NCBI GenBank assembly: GCA_016933815.1
Contig: JAFGAF010000444.1
Coordinates: 1 to 36,935, forward strand
Source of the DNA: Prolixibacteraceae bacterium
GTDB taxonomy: Bacteria; Bacteroidota; Bacteroidia; Bacteroidales; Prolixibacteraceae
Direction: 5' to 3'
Length of the DNA stretch: 36,935 bases
The translations under genes and the position numbers were made by a program. The notes under the pieces were generated by a model, which saw nothing but the letters and a program-made list of their open reading frames with translations, was not told where the DNA came from and ran no database searches. Position 1 is the stretch's first letter. Each line of letters starts with the position of its first letter. Of this stretch, positions 6,939 through 17,399 are shown piece by piece.

Positions 6939-9145
6939 GCATTAACCAAACTGTTCAATAATTCGCGCACAGCGTCAACCGATTTCACCTTGTAACGGGC
7001 AGCCGATTTCACCAAACCAACTTTTACGGTTATAGCAGTTTCGGGCAATTCGCGAAACATATATTCGTCAGTCCAGTCGTCGCCAATGGCCATCACAAAA
7101 TCGAATTGTTTGCCGCCAATAAACCTCAAAGCAGCTACCCCTTTATTAATTCCACCACTTTTCACTTCAATTACCTTGTTACCTTCCATAATTTCGAGGT
7201 TATGATTGGCAATCAGGTTGGTCAGTTCGTCCTTCAGTTCGTTGGCACGTAAAACGCCCTGCTCGGGTTCCGATTTACGATAATGCCAAACCAAGGAGTA
7301 GTTTTTCTCTTCGATGAACGAACCCGGTGTTCGGTCAACAAAGTTTTCGAGTGTAGGCCTGATGTTTTCTTTCCAATCGGCATTAATTTGGTAGAGCATG
7401 TCCCATTGACCGCCGCGTACTTTTGTCCAAACGCCGTGCTCAACAATTAGATTGATATCGTATCCTTCGAACCATTTTTCGAGCGTATCCCTGTCGCGAC
7501 CACTAATAATGGTTACTTCGTTGCGCTCATCGGCAGTAAGTTTCGAAATTATTTGATAAACTTCGCTGTCGGGGCGAGCTTCTTCGGGGTTGTTTTTGAA
7601 ACCCGACAGCGTACCGTCGTAGTCAAGAAAAATAGCTCTGCTTTTAGCTTCGCAGTAATTTTCGGTTAATGCTTTTTGCACCGAGGCAGTTACTTTTTTT
7701 GTATTGAATTGATGTTGTATGCCCTTAATTTTTTCGAGCGACTTAACAAACTCCGACGACCATTTGAATACATCATACCTTTTCAATCGTTTTTGTAACA
7801 GATCCATTCTGAAAGTTTGCTCTTCAGTTGACATCGAAATGGCCTTGTATATACTTTCGGCTATCTCGTTGAAATTATTGGGGTTGATAATGATGGCTTC
7901 GCCCATTTCTTTGCTCACACCAGCCATTTCGCTTAAAATAATCACCCCATCCTTGTTAATTCGCGATGCTACATATTCCTTGGCCACAAGGTTCATTCCG
8001 TCGCGCACCGGGGTAATCAAAGCAACATCGCTGGCGGTGTACAGTTCAATAAGATTATCGAAAGGCAACGAACGGTAAAAATACCATATTGGCGTGTAAT
8101 TGATCATGCCATACTTTCCGTTGATGTAGCCCACCAACTCATCGACCTGTTTTTTAAGATTAACGTAATGCTCAACATTGTCGCGCGAGGGTACTGCCAG
8201 CATCACCAAGCTTACCTTCCCCTGGTATTGCGGGTATTTTTCGAGGAAGAGACTAAACGCCTTCAAACGGTTGGGAATGCCTTTTGTGTAATCCATCCGA
8301 TCAATTGAAAGAATCAGTTTACGATCGGGCGAAGTGCTAAAATATTTTTCAAGTTCAACATGCAATTCCGATTTTTCGGATTCGTTTTTTGCATGTATGC
8401 GGCTTGCTGCTGAGCTAAACTTCTCATAATCGATTCCCATTGGAAAAGCATCGGCCAAAATAATGCGACTTTCGGTATGTATTTGGTTAAAATGAATTTC
8501 GATGCCAAAAAGCCGCCTTACTGTACTGAAAAAGTGCCTTTCGTAATCGTAGGTATGAAACCCTATTAAATCGGCACCCAGCATCCCTTCAATAATTTCG
8601 TTACGCCAAGGCAATATTCTGAAAACTTCGTACGACGGGAAAGGAATATGAAGAAAAAAACCAATGGTAACATCGGGCCTTTCGTTTTTAATCATCTGAG
8701 GCACAAGCAAGAGTTGATAATCGTGCACCCAAACCGAATCACCATCGTCGAGCACCTGCAATGCAGCGTTGGCAAATTTGCGGTTTACTGCAACGTATGC
8801 ATCCCAACAATCCTGATCGTACTCAATAAACTCGTTAAAATAGTGAAACAGTGGCCAAATAGTTTTATTACTAAAGCCTTCGTAGTATTTATCTACATCG
8901 TTGGTTGTAAGGTGAACAGGCACACAATTTTCTTTTTCAAAAGCCTTTTCGATCCGTTCTTGGTCGCCTGGCTCAAAATGCTCCTCTGCTATTCCCGGCC
9001 ATCCAATCCATTTTCCGTTATATTTTTGGTAAACCGACTTCATGCCGGTTGCCAACCCGCCAACACTCGGACTAAGTTTAAAATCATTGTCAATTCTTTC
9101 GGTATTGAATGGTAATCGATTCGATAAAATATGAATTCTGCTCAT
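6935..9145 (-). CDS. otsAB: Bifunctional trehalose-6-phosphate synthase / trehalose-phosphatase (OtsA-OtsB fusion)
   Basis: This enzyme makes trehalose in two steps: glucose from a nucleotide sugar is joined to glucose-6-phosphate, then the phosphate is removed. The 736-residue protein has a GT20 synthase domain at about 1-475. It carries the N-terminal SNRLPF, GKWIGWPG (44-51), HDYQLLL (141-147), HIPFPSYEVFRILPWR, the phosphate/sugar-nucleotide binding DRMDYTKG (282-289) and GMNLVAKEY (383-391). A HAD-type phosphatase domain at about 500-736 begins with the nucleophile motif LDYDGTL (about 507-513) and ends with the acidic GDDWTDEYMF motif. Both domains therefore look intact. The gene diverges from the GH15 gene across a 136-base AT-rich spacer. 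It probably supplies osmoprotectant or stress trehalose in the cytoplasm. Confidence 0.95.
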   Translation of the reverse strand: MSRIHILSNRLPFNTERIDNDFKLSPSVGGLATGMKSVYQKYNGKWIGWPGIAEEHFEPGDQERIEKAFEKENCVPVHLTTNDVDKYYEGFSNKTIWPLFHYFNEFIEYDQDCWDAYVAVNRKFANAALQVLDDGDSVWVHDYQLLLVPQMIKNERPDVTIGFFLHIPFPSYEVFRILPWRNEIIEGMLGADLIGFHTYDYERHFFSTVRRLFGIEIHFNQIHTESRIILADAFPMGIDYEKFSSAASRIHAKNESEKSELHVELEKYFSTSPDRKLILSIDRMDYTKGIPNRLKAFSLFLEKYPQYQGKVSLVMLAVPSRDNVEHYVNLKKQVDELVGYINGKYGMINYTPIWYFYRSLPFDNLIELYTASDVALITPVRDGMNLVAKEYVASRINKDGVIILSEMAGVSKEMGEAIIINPNNFNEIAESIYKAISMSTEEQTFRMDLLQKRLKRYDVFKWSSEFVKSLEKIKGIQHQFNTKKVTASVQKALTENYCEAKSRAIFLDYDGTLSGFKNNPEEARPDSEVYQIISKLTADERNEVTIISGRDRDTLEKWFEGYDINLIVEHGVWTKVRGGQWDMLYQINADWKENIRPTLENFVDRTPGSFIEEKNYSLVWHYRKSEPEQGVLRANELKDELTNLIANHNLEIMEGNKVIEVKSGGINKGVAALRFIGGKQFDFVMAIGDDWTDEYMFRELPETAITVKVGLVKSAARYKVKSVDAVRELLNSLVNA

Positions 9146-12500: not shown

Positions 12501-12986
12501 ATGGAAAAGATCGCTGTTTTTCCCGGATCGTTCGACCCGTTTACAGTTGGACACGAATCGGTTTTGAAAAGGGCATTGCCTGTATTCGACAGGATTATTG
12601 TAATGATTGGGGTAAACAATACAAAAAATTACCTTTTTTCGGTTGAGACCCGAAAAAAAATTATTGAAGAAGTTTTTTGCGATGAACCCCGTATCAATGT
12701 TCAAATTTACGATGGGTTAACGGTTGATTTTTGCAGGCAAACCGGTGCAACACATATACTAAGGGGCCTCAGAACAGCAGCCGACTTTGAATACGAAAGA
12801 GCCATTGCGCAGGTAAATAAAAAGATGTACAACAACATCGAAACCGTTTTTTTGCTTACATTGCCTGAGCATACGCCAATTAATTCATCGGTAGTGCGCG
12901 ATATTTTAAAACACAATGGGGACATCAGCATGTTTATTCCTGAAAATATAAACATCAGAAAATTTTTGAGCGATGAGAAGCACTAA
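12501..12986 (+). CDS. coaD: Phosphopantetheine adenylyltransferase
   Basis: CoaD transfers AMP from ATP to 4'-phosphopantetheine, the penultimate step of coenzyme A synthesis in the cytoplasm. The 161-residue protein has the nucleotidyltransferase signature PGSFDPFTVGH at its N-terminus, LRGLRTAADFEYE in the middle and the C-terminal INSSVVRDI corresponding to the family ISSTxVR motif. Length is normal for bacterial CoaD. The ATG at 12501 is preferred over an in-frame TTG 15 bases upstream because the N-terminus MEKIAVFPGSF matches the family and the promoter overlaps the TTG region. The last 14 bases overlap the start of the next gene, suggesting coupled translation. Confidence 0.96.
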   Translation: MEKIAVFPGSFDPFTVGHESVLKRALPVFDRIIVMIGVNNTKNYLFSVETRKKIIEEVFCDEPRINVQIYDGLTVDFCRQTGATHILRGLRTAADFEYERAIAQVNKKMYNNIETVFLLTLPEHTPINSSVVRDILKHNGDISMFIPENINIRKFLSDEKH

Positions 12987-14364
12987 CAGAAACATTATCA
13001 CTATAGCTTTTTTGCTGCTTAGCACCATTTTAAACGGTGCCGAAATAAAGTTTGTTGCACCCGAATATGCCGGTGATGCGTTCAGCTTCTACGTTATTCC
13101 AAATTTTTTGACTGAAAAACAAGAAATAATAGGCAGTGCCGAGGTAGATGCCGATGGCAATTTTAGCTGCACAATCGACATAAGTGAACAACTGCCGGTT
13201 TATACCGAATTTGATGTTTACAAAGGTTGGATTGTTATGAGCCCCGACGATGTAATTGAAATTACCCTTCCGCCCAAAGAACAAAAAAAATCGTCGAACC
13301 CCTACTTCAGGCCCAAAATGGTTCACTTTGGGGTAAAAAACCCTTCGCCCGAAAACATTAACCTGCTAATTGTAAATTTCAACAGGCAATTTCAAATGCA
13401 AATGAGCCAAAACATGCAGCAGATTTTTTACCGTCGATCGATTGAAACTGCTGTTCAAGTGGTTGAAACGTTGCAAACTCAATTTCCGGCAACCGAAAAT
13501 GCCTATTTCGAAGAATACAAAACCTACAAATATGCTTCGATAAAATACACTGCACAAATCCAGGATCCTGCACCGGTTATCGAGGAATACTTTAACAAAC
13601 AACCCATTTTATACACGCAGCCCGAATACAGCGAAATGTTCGATAAACTTTTTTCGAAATACTTGCAATATGCAACACAACAGGTAAACGGGCAAAAAAT
13701 CAGCGTTCTGCTCAACTCAGGTGCATACGAACAGTTAATCGACTGGCTTACCATGGATATAATGTTTAACAAATCGCTGGCCGAAGCAATAATTATTAAA
13801 GGCATTAAACCCATATTTTACTCGAAAAGATTCAATACAGTAGGCCTTTTCAACATATTGCATAAAATAACCGAAACATCGGAAGTTGAAACACATCGGA
13901 TTGCTGCCAACAAAATATTCAACGAATTGGCCCGCACCCAATACGGAACCATTGCACCCGAGCTCGACTTAGCCGATACCCAAGGCAATATTGTAAGCTG
14001 GGACGATTTTAGCGGCAAATACGTTTACTTGTGCTTTACCCGCACCGATAACGAAAAATTCGCGCCGCACAAAGCTTTGATCAAAGAATTTCAAATAAAA
14101 TACAAAGCCGATTTAGCCATTGTTATTGTAATTGAAGACGATAAAATTGAAGAAAACAAAGAGTTGATCAGCAGCGATGGTTTCGAATGGACAATTCTAA
14201 GGGGAAGTACACGTCGTGAAATTTACGATTCGTATAACGTTCGCATACTTCCAACATATTTTCTAATCGACCCTCAAGGACGCATGGCCGGCTCGCAAGC
14301 ACCTTGGCCCGACGAGAATTTCGAAATGCAATTTGCCAACGTACTTAAAGCAACACAGAATTAG
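12973..14364 (+). CDS. Secreted protein with C-terminal thioredoxin-like domain lacking CxxC
   Basis: The 463-residue protein begins with a signal peptide (MRSTNRNIITIAFLLLSTIL, then NGA), so it is exported, probably to the periplasm. Residues of about 25-320 form an unrecognised, helix-rich N-terminal region. Residues from about 325 to the end resemble the TlpA/redoxin fold common in Bacteroidota: PELDLADTQGNIVSWDDFSGKY, then YVYLCFTRTDNEKF where the active-site WCxxC should be, and RILPTYFLIDPQGRM with the cis-proline position. The CxxC pair is absent; only C354 remains nearby. It is therefore unlikely to be a disulfide reductase and may be a binding or structural protein. The gene overlaps coaD by 14 bases and probably shares its transcript. 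Confidence 0.82.
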   Translation: MRSTNRNIITIAFLLLSTILNGAEIKFVAPEYAGDAFSFYVIPNFLTEKQEIIGSAEVDADGNFSCTIDISEQLPVYTEFDVYKGWIVMSPDDVIEITLPPKEQKKSSNPYFRPKMVHFGVKNPSPENINLLIVNFNRQFQMQMSQNMQQIFYRRSIETAVQVVETLQTQFPATENAYFEEYKTYKYASIKYTAQIQDPAPVIEEYFNKQPILYTQPEYSEMFDKLFSKYLQYATQQVNGQKISVLLNSGAYEQLIDWLTMDIMFNKSLAEAIIIKGIKPIFYSKRFNTVGLFNILHKITETSEVETHRIAANKIFNELARTQYGTIAPELDLADTQGNIVSWDDFSGKYVYLCFTRTDNEKFAPHKALIKEFQIKYKADLAIVIVIEDDKIEENKELISSDGFEWTILRGSTRREIYDSYNVRILPTYFLIDPQGRMAGSQAPWPDENFEMQFANVLKATQN

Positions 14365-14380
14365 TAAAAAGGTCATAACG

Positions 14381-14405
14381 AAAAAAGGATGGCTTCTGCC
14401 ATCCT
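14381..14405 (-). terminator. Intrinsic terminator of the candidate small RNA
   Basis: On the minus strand AGGATGGC pairs with GCCATCCT (14386-14405, eight perfect pairs, four-base loop AGAA) and is followed by a run of T (14385-14381). On the plus strand the same hairpin is not followed by T, so it is a poor terminator for the upstream plus-strand gene. Confidence 0.7.
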
Positions 14406-14453
14406 CTAAATCCTAACCAAACCTAATTCTATGAAAAATCTATTGCTTTACTA
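14381..14453 (-). ncRNA. Candidate small non-coding RNA, about 73 nt
   Basis: This intergenic unit has everything needed for a stand-alone minus-strand transcript: a TATCTTTG -7 box at 14467-14460, a short AT-rich body, and a perfect GC-rich hairpin followed by a T run. The body contains ATAGAATTAGGTTTGGTTAG and has no coding potential. It sits between a plus-strand secreted-protein gene and plus-strand ppdK, so it is not a leader of any minus-strand gene. I cannot name a known RNA family for it. The start point is estimated from the -7 box, and the end from the T run. Confidence 0.55.
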
Positions 14454-14459
14454 ACGACA

Positions 14460-14467
14460 CAAAGATA
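14460..14467 (-). promoter_or_regulatory. -7 box of the candidate small RNA
   Basis: The minus strand reads TATCTTTG, an exact TAnnTTTG match. A TTTC at about 22 bases upstream is a weak -33 candidate. Confidence 0.5.
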
Positions 14468-14693
14468 CGGCAATACTCTGTTAACGATTGAAAACCAATG
14501 TTAATTATTGTTAAGACTTACCTCACATCATCAATATGTTAGCTATTTTTCAAAACACGCATCTGCACATGGTAATGAGCTGCAAAAATATTACCTTTGT
14601 TATCCATTATTTGTTGAACATCAACACAACAATAAACGTTTACCCTTTTATGAAATGAATCTGCAATTAAAATCATAAACAAACAATCTTATT
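14468..14693 (+). promoter_or_regulatory. Spacer and leader before ppdK with a probable -7 box
   Basis: The gene-free stretch from 14365 to 14693 is 329 bases long. Its left part holds the candidate small RNA. Its right part holds TACCTTTG at 14592-14599, an exact -7 match. This would start a leader of about 88 bases for ppdK. No TTTG is seen at the proper distance upstream. The leader shows no obvious terminator-like hairpin and no riboswitch that I recognise. Confidence 0.45.
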
Positions 14694-17399
14694 ATGGCTA
14701 CAAAGTACGTTTATACTTTTGGGAACGGTCAGGCCGAAGGAAGGGCTGACATGAAAAATCTGTTAGGAGGCAAAGGCGCCAACCTTGCCGAGATGAACTT
14801 AATTGGAGTTCCGGTACCTCCGGGCTTCACCATCACCACCGACACCTGTACCATTTACAATCAGGTAGGCAAAGAAAAAGTCATTGAACAAATCAAAGAC
14901 CAGGTTGAAGATGCGATGAAATACGTCGAAAGCATTATGAATATGGGCTTTGGTTCCAAAGACAACCCACTTTTAATGTCGGTACGTTCAGGCGCACGAG
15001 TATCGATGCCCGGCATGATGGACACCGTATTAAACTTAGGGATGAACGATGAGGCTGTGCTTGCCATTGCCAAAAAATCGGGTAACGAACGTTTTGCATG
15101 GGACTCGTACCGCCGTTTTGTTCAAATGTACGGCGATGTTGTTTTAGGCATGAAACCCGAATCGAAAGAAGACATCGACCCGTTTGAAGAAATTATGGAA
15201 GAGGTTAAAGCTGCAAAAGGCGTTGAAAACGACAACGAACTCGACGTAAGCGACCTCAAAGAATTGGTAACAAAATTCAAAGCCGCAGTTAAAAAAGTTA
15301 CCGGCCACGATTTCCCTGTTAATCCATGGGAACAACTATGGGGAGCTGTAGCTGCCGTTTTCGACAGCTGGCAAAACCCACGCGCCAACTACTACCGTGC
15401 AATGAACCAAATACCCGAAGAATGGGGAACTGCCGTAAACGTACAAGCCATGGTTTTTGGTAACATGGGGCAAAACTCTGCCACAGGTGTTGCTTTTACC
15501 CGCGATGCAGCTACGGGAGAAAATGTTTTCAACGGTGAATACCTGATTGATGCTCAAGGTGAAGATGTTGTAGCCGGTGTACGCACCCCTCAGCAGATCA
15601 CAAAAGAAGGATCGTTACGTTGGGCCGTTTTGGCTGGCGTTTCCGAAGAAGAACGCAAAGCTAAATTCCCTTCGCTCGAAGAGGCTATGCCCGCTGCGTA
15701 CAAAGAACTTGACGAAACCCAAGAAAAACTCGAAAAGTACTTTAAAGATATGCAAGACCTTGAGTTTACCATTCAAGACGGTAAACTATGGATGTTGCAA
15801 ACCCGTAACGGAAAACGTACTGCTGCCGCTATGGTAAAAATTGCCATGGACCTGCTAAAAGAAGGTCTTATTGACGAAAAAACTGCTGTTCTTCGCCAGG
15901 AACCCAATAAACTCGACGAACTGCTGCACCCTGTTTTCGACAAAGAAGCAATCAAAAAAGCAAATGTTTTGGCCAAAGGCTTACCTGCATCGCCTGGTGC
16001 AGCCACCGGTCAGTTGGTATTCCACGCCGACGAAGCAGGTAAATTCCCTGTAACAATTCTGGCACGTATCGAAACATCGCCCGAGGACCTCGAAGGAATG
16101 GACATTGCCAAAGGTATTCTTACCGCACGCGGTGGTATGACCTCGCACGCAGCTGTTGTTGCCCGTGGTATGGGTAAATGCTGTGTTTCGGGTGCCGGCG
16201 ACTGCAAAATAGACGGCAAAGCCCGTACACTTACCGTTAAAGGTAAAACATTTATCGAAGGCGACTGGATCTCATTAAACGGCTCAACAGGTGAAGTTTA
16301 CGAAGGCAAGATTGGAACAATCGACCCCGAATTAAGTGGCGACTTTGGTGCTATTATGGAACTTGCCGATAAATACCGCAACATTGCTGTACGTACCAAT
16401 GCCGAAACCGAACGCGACTGCCTTGTTGCCCGCAAATTTGGCGCACAGGGCATCGGCCTTTGCCGTACCGAGCACATGTTCTTCGAAGGTGAACGCCTCA
16501 TTCGTATGCGCGAAATGATTCTCGCCGACGACGAAAGCGGTCGCCGTGCCGCACTGGCTAAGTTATTGCCCATCCAAAGGCAAGACTTCAAAGACGTTTT
16601 TAAAGCCATGGCAGGGCTACCTGTAACTGTTCGTTTACTCGATCCACCATTGCACGAATTCGTACCTCACGAAGATGACAACCAAAAAGAAATGGCCAAC
16701 GAGATGGGCATTTCGGTTGAAGTAGTTAAACAAAAGGTAGCCGACCTGCACGAGTTCAACCCAATGTTGGGCCACCGCGGATGCCGTTTGGGCAACACTT
16801 ATCCCGAAATTACCGAAATGCAAGCCCGTGCTATTATCGAGGCTGCACTCGACCTTAAGAAAGAAGGCGTTAAAACCTTCCCCGAAATAATGATTCCGCT
16901 TATTGGTAACAAAAAAGAACTTAAACTTCAGGAAGAAATTGTACGTTCAACCATTGCCGAAGTTTTTGCCGAACGCGGCGAAAGCATCGAATACATGGTA
17001 GGCACAATGATTGAAGTACCTCGTGCTGCTGTAACTGCCGACGAAGTTGCCGAAGTTGCCGAATTCTTCTCGTTTGGAACCAACGACCTCACTCAAATGA
17101 CCCTTGGCTTCTCGCGTGACGATGCCGGAAAATTCTTGCCCGTTTACATTCAAAAGGGATTATTGAAAAACGACCCGTTTCAGGTTCTCGACCAAGACGG
17201 CGTTGGACAATTGGTGAAAATGGGTATTGAAAAAGGTCGCAGCACCAACCCTAAACTTAAAATTGGTATTTGTGGCGAACATGGTGGCGAACCCAGCTCA
17301 GTTGAGTTTTGCGTTCGTGCCGGCATGAATTATGTTTCGTGCTCACCATTCCGTGTACCTATTGCACGTTTAGCTGCTGCTCAAGCCGCCTTACGCTAA
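14694..17399 (+). CDS. ppdK: Pyruvate, phosphate dikinase
   Basis: PPDK interconverts pyruvate, ATP and phosphate with phosphoenolpyruvate, AMP and pyrophosphate. In anaerobic Bacteroidota it can serve glycolysis or gluconeogenesis. The 901-residue protein has the N-terminal ATP-grasp domain (LLGGKGANLAEM, then SVRSGARVSMPGMMDTVLNL), the swivelling phosphohistidine domain with GGMTSHAAVVARGMG where H485 is the phosphorylated residue, and the C-terminal PEP/pyruvate barrel ending with GICGEHGG where C860 is the expected acid/base cysteine. All catalytic landmarks are present and the length is close to the family norm of about 875-900. It is a single-gene transcript bounded by its own leader and a strong terminator. 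Confidence 0.97.
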   Translation: MATKYVYTFGNGQAEGRADMKNLLGGKGANLAEMNLIGVPVPPGFTITTDTCTIYNQVGKEKVIEQIKDQVEDAMKYVESIMNMGFGSKDNPLLMSVRSGARVSMPGMMDTVLNLGMNDEAVLAIAKKSGNERFAWDSYRRFVQMYGDVVLGMKPESKEDIDPFEEIMEEVKAAKGVENDNELDVSDLKELVTKFKAAVKKVTGHDFPVNPWEQLWGAVAAVFDSWQNPRANYYRAMNQIPEEWGTAVNVQAMVFGNMGQNSATGVAFTRDAATGENVFNGEYLIDAQGEDVVAGVRTPQQITKEGSLRWAVLAGVSEEERKAKFPSLEEAMPAAYKELDETQEKLEKYFKDMQDLEFTIQDGKLWMLQTRNGKRTAAAMVKIAMDLLKEGLIDEKTAVLRQEPNKLDELLHPVFDKEAIKKANVLAKGLPASPGAATGQLVFHADEAGKFPVTILARIETSPEDLEGMDIAKGILTARGGMTSHAAVVARGMGKCCVSGAGDCKIDGKARTLTVKGKTFIEGDWISLNGSTGEVYEGKIGTIDPELSGDFGAIMELADKYRNIAVRTNAETERDCLVARKFGAQGIGLCRTEHMFFEGERLIRMREMILADDESGRRAALAKLLPIQRQDFKDVFKAMAGLPVTVRLLDPPLHEFVPHEDDNQKEMANEMGISVEVVKQKVADLHEFNPMLGHRGCRLGNTYPEITEMQARAIIEAALDLKKEGVKTFPEIMIPLIGNKKELKLQEEIVRSTIAEVFAERGESIEYMVGTMIEVPRAAVTADEVAEVAEFFSFGTNDLTQMTLGFSRDDAGKFLPVYIQKGLLKNDPFQVLDQDGVGQLVKMGIEKGRSTNPKLKIGICGEHGGEPSSVEFCVRAGMNYVSCSPFRVPIARLAAAQAALR

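Follow-up and report, generated by a model that had tools for sequence, protein, structure and literature searches.

The minus-strand unit at positions 14381–14514 of the window (the whole analysed stretch of 36,935 nucleotides from a Prolixibacteraceae bacterium) very probably encodes a real, conserved small regulatory RNA. Its anatomy, its conservation, a link between covariance models that holds in both directions with FopS and a predicted pairing that favours susC start regions are best explained, and in our judgement probably explained, by a free-standing, trans-acting sRNA of a FopS-like Prolixibacteraceae family, which would pair with the starts of susC mRNAs and block their translation. 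Transcription would proceed from a TAnnTTTG promoter with TTAAC repeats upstream and end at the RNA's own terminator after ∼75 nt. In the cell, the conserved 5′ stretch would pair with susC-type mRNAs, which encode TonB-linked glycan transporters, around their translation start, and by covering the AUG it would keep ribosomes from entering; a protein with an RRM domain, comparable to RbpB, may modulate the sRNA. FopS-10 of Bacteroides thetaiotaomicron binds the susC start region and blocks translation, an effect relieved by RbpB (PMC11697453), and since both the anatomy and the predicted targets match, this mechanism is the most likely one here.

The initial annotation had pointed to a minus-strand TAnnTTTG box followed about 55 bases later by a perfect eight-pair hairpin and a T run, and all of these were recovered at 14467–14381. 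The box TATCTTTG is separated from the eight-pair stem by 55 bases, and the core arms AGGATGGC (14405–14398) and GCCATCCT (14393–14386) form eight standard pairs around the loop AGAA (14397–14394), with one G-T and one A-T pair lengthening the stem to ten. It was equally correct that no minus-strand gene lies downstream: the neighbour on that side is a plus-strand ORF (12973–14364) with its 3′ end toward the unit. The rest of the promoter, namely TTAAC at 14484–14480, 14504–14500 and 14514–14510, had been overlooked. The stretch proposed to pair with targets was right in kind, but it starts further upstream, with a core at 14438–14412, and is not restricted to the AGGTTTGGTTAG part. Folding of the 73-nt body gave a z-score of −3.28 relative to shuffles, 2 of 200 of which fold equally well or better. 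The seed precedes the terminator in the window unit; it is mostly unpaired in the centroid fold and partly, albeit weakly, paired in the lowest-energy fold.

Table 1. Coordinates of the minus-strand unit and of its divergent neighbour in the window; promoter distances refer to the first base of the −7 box.
Feature	Position	Strand	Basis
TTAAC, distal promoter repeat	14510..14514	−	sequence; −47; 35/46 Prolixibacteraceae copies
TTAAC, middle promoter repeat	14500..14504	−	sequence; −37; 43/46 copies; invariant in 6/6 genus-level loci
TTAAC, −33-like element	14480..14484	−	sequence; −17; 40/46 copies
−7 box TATCTTTG	14460..14467	−	sequence; TAnnTTTG in 6/6 genus-level loci
Predicted sRNA, ∼75 nt	14381..14455	−	5′ end placed from published FopS 5′ ends relative to the box
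Seed-like conserved stretch TTTTTCATAGAATTAGGTTTGGTTAGG, corresponding to FopS R1′	14412..14438	−	alignments; pairing test
Intrinsic terminator hairpin, 10 pairs, loop AGAA	14384..14407	−	pair covariation; folding
Terminal T run	14381..14386	−	sequence
ppdK, divergent neighbour, not considered a target	14694..17399	+	name as read in the initial annotation; beside the sRNA in seven genomes (two genera)

Single elements of the unit do not exceed chance. TAnnTTTG is found 45 times in the window (47.0 expected) and terminator-like sites 16 times between positions 8000 and 22000 (17.4 expected), whereas TTAAC-N12-TAnnTTTG occurs once against an expectation of 0.09. The box by itself is no evidence for a promoter; the unit is strong despite the chance-level box and terminator because it is conserved in relatives, and it is these comparative data that raise it above chance. 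A DNA search of 60 relatives and the own genome gave a long match of 85–87% identity in five of the seven same-genus genomes; it was absent from the other two, both of which are incomplete (87% and 56%). When the window was aligned with the five genomes, the TTAAC elements, the box, the AGTAAAGCAATAGA-type leader, the seed and the terminator were found to be conserved and the flanks were not. The proposal of an independent sRNA of ∼73 nt had been staked on conservation of box, body and hairpin in close relatives, and their retention in five of seven supports it at 73–75 nt, as do copies elsewhere in the family, many with box and terminator, and a hairpin in which nine of ten pairs show two-sided changes. 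The chance-level counts would suit a fortuitous promoter-like box next to the terminator of another transcript, with no sRNA at all, but conservation confined to the unit, the compensatory changes and the family-wide copies make this extremely improbable.

Searches of the genome collection with a degenerate seed pattern retrieved 30 stretches in named genomes, 24 of them titled as Prolixibacteraceae or its genera, five as Bacteroidetes/Bacteroidota only and one as Chitinophaga pinensis. The last, a Prolixibacteraceae-type copy in a MAG (L054, CAMDGL010000239.1), may be due to a wrong label or contamination. The same pattern had no matches in viral contigs. Almost every family copy inspected has its own box and its own terminator; an exact box is missing from L021, one copy of L035 and L037. 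From 31 Prolixibacteraceae copies, with none from Bacteroidaceae, a covariance model (hereafter model R1) was constructed, and nine of the ten hairpin pairs show one or more two-sided changes by which pairing is preserved. At E ≤ 0.01 it has hits, not checked individually, in 139 of 140 Prolixibacteraceae genomes and in all 23 genera, with 1–18 hits per genome. Within the own genome the window scores 75.7 bits, followed by contigs C565 (38.5), C131 (35.4), C148 (30.5) and C142 (28.6); C131 carries the seed, C565 has a changed one, and C148 and C142 are doubtful. As with FopS, several copies are therefore present, both in the own genome (window, C131 and C565) and throughout the family. The C565 paralogue (G000:C565:12416–12485; L081), with its changed seed TTTTTATAAGTTTAGATTTGGTTAG, perhaps has other targets. 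FopS-like genes are also found in tandem arrays: eight hits of model R1 lie within 1.9 kb at G343:C1:2455425–2457278, and the tandem copies in L023, L035 and L038 mostly have one box and one terminator apiece.

The divergent neighbour is ppdK in all seven genomes examined with this copy (five of the same genus and two of a second), whereas the gene flanking the window copy on its far side was found in none of the five of these where comparison was possible. Such linkage could be read as a cis-acting element or a dedicated regulator of ppdK. This is very unlikely, given that paralogues of the RNA occur at other places, that the two are divergently oriented without overlap and that the pairing predicted for the ppdK start region (−9.8 kcal/mol) is no better than the control mean (−10.0 kcal/mol; see below). 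Another reading would turn the unit around. The seed is the reverse complement of a ATGAAAAA start, and the window, L007, L009 and L011 encode MKNLLLY and then a stop, so that the beginning of a small plus-strand gene (ATGAAAAATCTATTGCTTTAC...) might have been read backwards. The frame is, however, shifted in L008 and L010, other family copies keep the seed without the frame, and both box and terminator are oriented to the minus strand. The micro-ORF was rejected, and a plus-strand gene is hardly credible.

Under the favoured reading of a trans-acting sRNA, pairing would fall to the conserved 5′ part UUUUUCAUAGAAUUAGGUUUGGUUAGG, an antisense match to start regions containing AUGAAAAA. Duplex energies were computed between the 32–33-base seed and gene positions −35 to +20, the most upstream ATG being taken, uncurated, as the start. 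In the own genome, 18 susC start regions averaged −14.0 kcal/mol and 227 control ORFs −10.0 (p 9.5e-5); the means were, for 29 susC start regions of Draconibacterium orientale, probed with the seed of that species, −15.4 against −10.6 for 227 ORFs (p 3.8e-8); these p-values, and those that follow, treat homologous susC genes as independent. The preference was also seen relative to basic starts of the Met-Lys/Asn/Arg type (p 0.0023, n = 32, in the own genome; p 0.0012, n = 38, in D. orientale). None of 60 dinucleotide-shuffled seeds attained the difference in either genome, and the reverse complement had no effect. Energies of −15 or lower were reached by 7/18 susC genes and 10/227 controls in the own genome and by 17/29 and 15/227 in D. 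orientale. The susC sets represent 18 of 44 TIGR04056 matches in the own genome (an N-terminal match and an ATG were required; the weak L131–L134 were dropped and the rest are partial or not included) and 29 of 40 in D. orientale (30 were taken, of which L154 has no start and was dropped), and removal of ORFs above 900 aa reduced the controls from 234 and 241, respectively, to 227 each. The predicted duplex lies over the AUG in 17/18 and 27/29 susC genes, barely more often than in controls (164/227 and 185/227), a small contrast that arises because the tested region is short. Several strongly pairing controls have N-termini like those of secreted or lipid-anchored proteins and may be targets too. 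The own genome encodes a single RRM_1 protein, at C2:192–401.

A new feature of the Prolixibacteraceae copies is the 10/20-base register in which TTAAC recurs in their promoters (Table 1; counted over 46 distinct copies with an exact box). Because their spacing is exact over whole helical turns, these repeats suggest a regulator site besides a −33 element. At −17 of TAnnTTTG boxes upstream of ORFs, TTAAC was found in 0 of 95 and in 1 of 67 cases, the latter being the sRNA's own. Since the boxes compared have mostly arisen by chance, a general −33 role of TTAAC is still conceivable, and its treatment as a proven family-specific element was dropped. The triple register occurred only at sRNA promoters in 462 kb plus 581 kb (overlapping loci were counted twice, and of the Draconibacterium hits the third repeats one promoter, read from the opposite strand). 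With 0–2 hits for control registers, however, the count is not significant. Among copies from the order's remaining families, some of them close relatives, 10 of 32 are preceded by the inverted repeat TGTT-N2-6-AACA, against an average of 0.5 and a maximum of 3 in shuffles. Repeats like TGTTATATAACA were noted upstream of FopS promoters in L068, L071, L279, L280, L282, L289 and others. Both the TTAAC repeats and the inverted repeat contain TAACA/TGTTA half-sites, and one may speculate that a single regulator reads both.

The RNA-family search that had been recommended for the unit returned no match in the window at Rfam gathering thresholds, and the relation to FopS, missed in the initial annotation, came from a relaxed scan of 14200–14750. 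Here FopS (RF04319) matched over its full length (1–71) with 31.4 bits and E 0.0084 and was the sole Rfam family at E < 0.1; GibS (RF04182) was absent among the six matches up to E 10. The window was also the best RF04319 place in the own genome (E 0.0116), the next two resembling plain terminators. The score falls short of the gathering value of 56, which rules out strict membership of RF04319, and among 20 other Prolixibacteraceae loci the family was detected in only four (best 41.7, none reaching 56). Taken alone, the match of the window would be marginal. Conversely, model R1 finds all nine loci previously above the RF04319 cut-off (62 kb searched; E between 5.6e-6 and 9.6e-5). As a model that lacks Bacteroidaceae recovers genuine FopS genes, homology of the Prolixibacteraceae RNA with FopS is likely, and the RNA constitutes a new, divergent FopS-like subfamily outside RF04319.

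Loci with a model R1 hit in other families of the order (the GTDB order; NCBI puts Prolixibacteraceae in Marinilabiliales) scored above the RF04319 cut-off in 10 of 20 and then in 7 of 15 cases (nine hits), fractions that are not prevalences since the loci were picked by that hit. In the pooled scans, 12 of the order's families (f20, f24, f26, f27, f92, f97, f108, f126, f134, f152, f153 and f173) had FopS loci exceeding the Rfam cut-off, which is also new; one code being one family, at least 11 of them are not Bacteroidaceae. The FopS paper reports its conservation within Bacteroidaceae, from BLAST with a word size of 28, and mentions one phage (PMC11697453). Among the matches listed, the open-licence literature gave no report of FopS-like RNAs outside Bacteroidaceae and nothing relevant on Prolixibacteraceae sRNAs, and in a wider search the FopS paper alone was relevant. 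Four IMG/VR viral contigs (L056–L059) have a canonical FopS seed and terminator, with no evident TAnnTTTG box just upstream.

At E ≤ 0.001, model R1 has hits in 91 of 247 genomes of the order, three of them Prolixibacteraceae, in 40 genomes belonging to the class but not to this order (at most 285 drawn) and in 12 of other classes of the phylum. Among the inspected hits (one per genome), the core TTCATAG/GG was present in 14/20 from the same order, 5/20 from other orders and 0/12 from other classes, and a TAnnTTTG box within 60 bases accompanied 12, 3 and 0 of them, respectively. The weak hits are in part plain terminators and the E-values are too generous; given the 5/20 and 0/12 counts, the notion that the RNA spans the whole class was dropped. 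In L228, L231 and L253, which likewise come from the class outside this order, CTCTTCATAGAGTTTTGGTTTGGTTTGG recurs together with a terminator and perhaps belongs to another sRNA of the start-codon type.

These data also bear on whether the RNA, though real and acting like FopS, might not descend from it. An RNA carrying UUUUUCAU is antisense to every AUGAAAAA start, and such RNAs could emerge more than once: TTTTCAT without AG is present by chance in six of the 12 weak other-class hits (five of the six being one locus of one genus). The marginal RF04319 score at the window, a seed two bases shorter, a longer 5′ leader and a different promoter would fit such an origin as well. Set against this are full-length model matches both ways, forms intermediate between the subfamilies in other families (L209, L211 and L224) and a core found in 14/20 same-order but 0/12 other-class hits, and we consider independent origin unlikely. 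Shared descent with FopS suggests that control of the FopS type reaches further back, and across more lineages, than the gut bacteria of its discovery. A bolder extension, which we put forward tentatively, as something short of probable, is that start-codon blockers of the FopS type belong to the ancestral regulation of glycan-transporter synthesis in the whole GTDB order, perhaps the class, and that those of Prolixibacteraceae make up a multicopy, coordinated regulon under one DNA-binding regulator reading the helical-turn-spaced TTAAC repeats. For polysaccharide-utilisation genes, control by RNA has been described in gut Bacteroides. If the proposal holds, FopS-type control would be at work in sediment and marine Prolixibacteraceae and predate the gut lineages, the bile response as a late addition to an older circuit would become testable, and the common promoter repeats would provide a handle on the transcriptional regulator.

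Of the known sRNAs, Rfp18 of Flavobacterium psychrophilum is likewise a conserved RNA of the same class that affects secreted enzymes, but by its description its pairing region is a third stem-loop and its link is to metalloproteases (PMC9723704), which sets it apart. GibS has the stretch designated R1 in common with FopS and also acts at start regions, but it extends over 142 positions and possesses a second seed, R2 (PMC11697453). FopS of B. thetaiotaomicron itself differs in that its seed has two A before GGTTA, lacking in Prolixibacteraceae, and in that its box precedes the seed by 15 nt rather than 29 nt, so that the Prolixibacteraceae leader is longer; TTAAC repeats distinguish the Prolixibacteraceae promoter, and the hosts are environmental Prolixibacteraceae here and gut Bacteroidaceae there. 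The likeness to FopS comprises the size class (∼65–75 nt), several copies per genome, a TAnnTTTG promoter just upstream (the sigma-ABfr consensus according to PMC11697453), conserved in the window unit, a terminator after a 5′ stretch of the UUUUUCAU.G..UUAG type, the presence of an RRM_1 protein and pairing with susC start regions, predicted here in silico.
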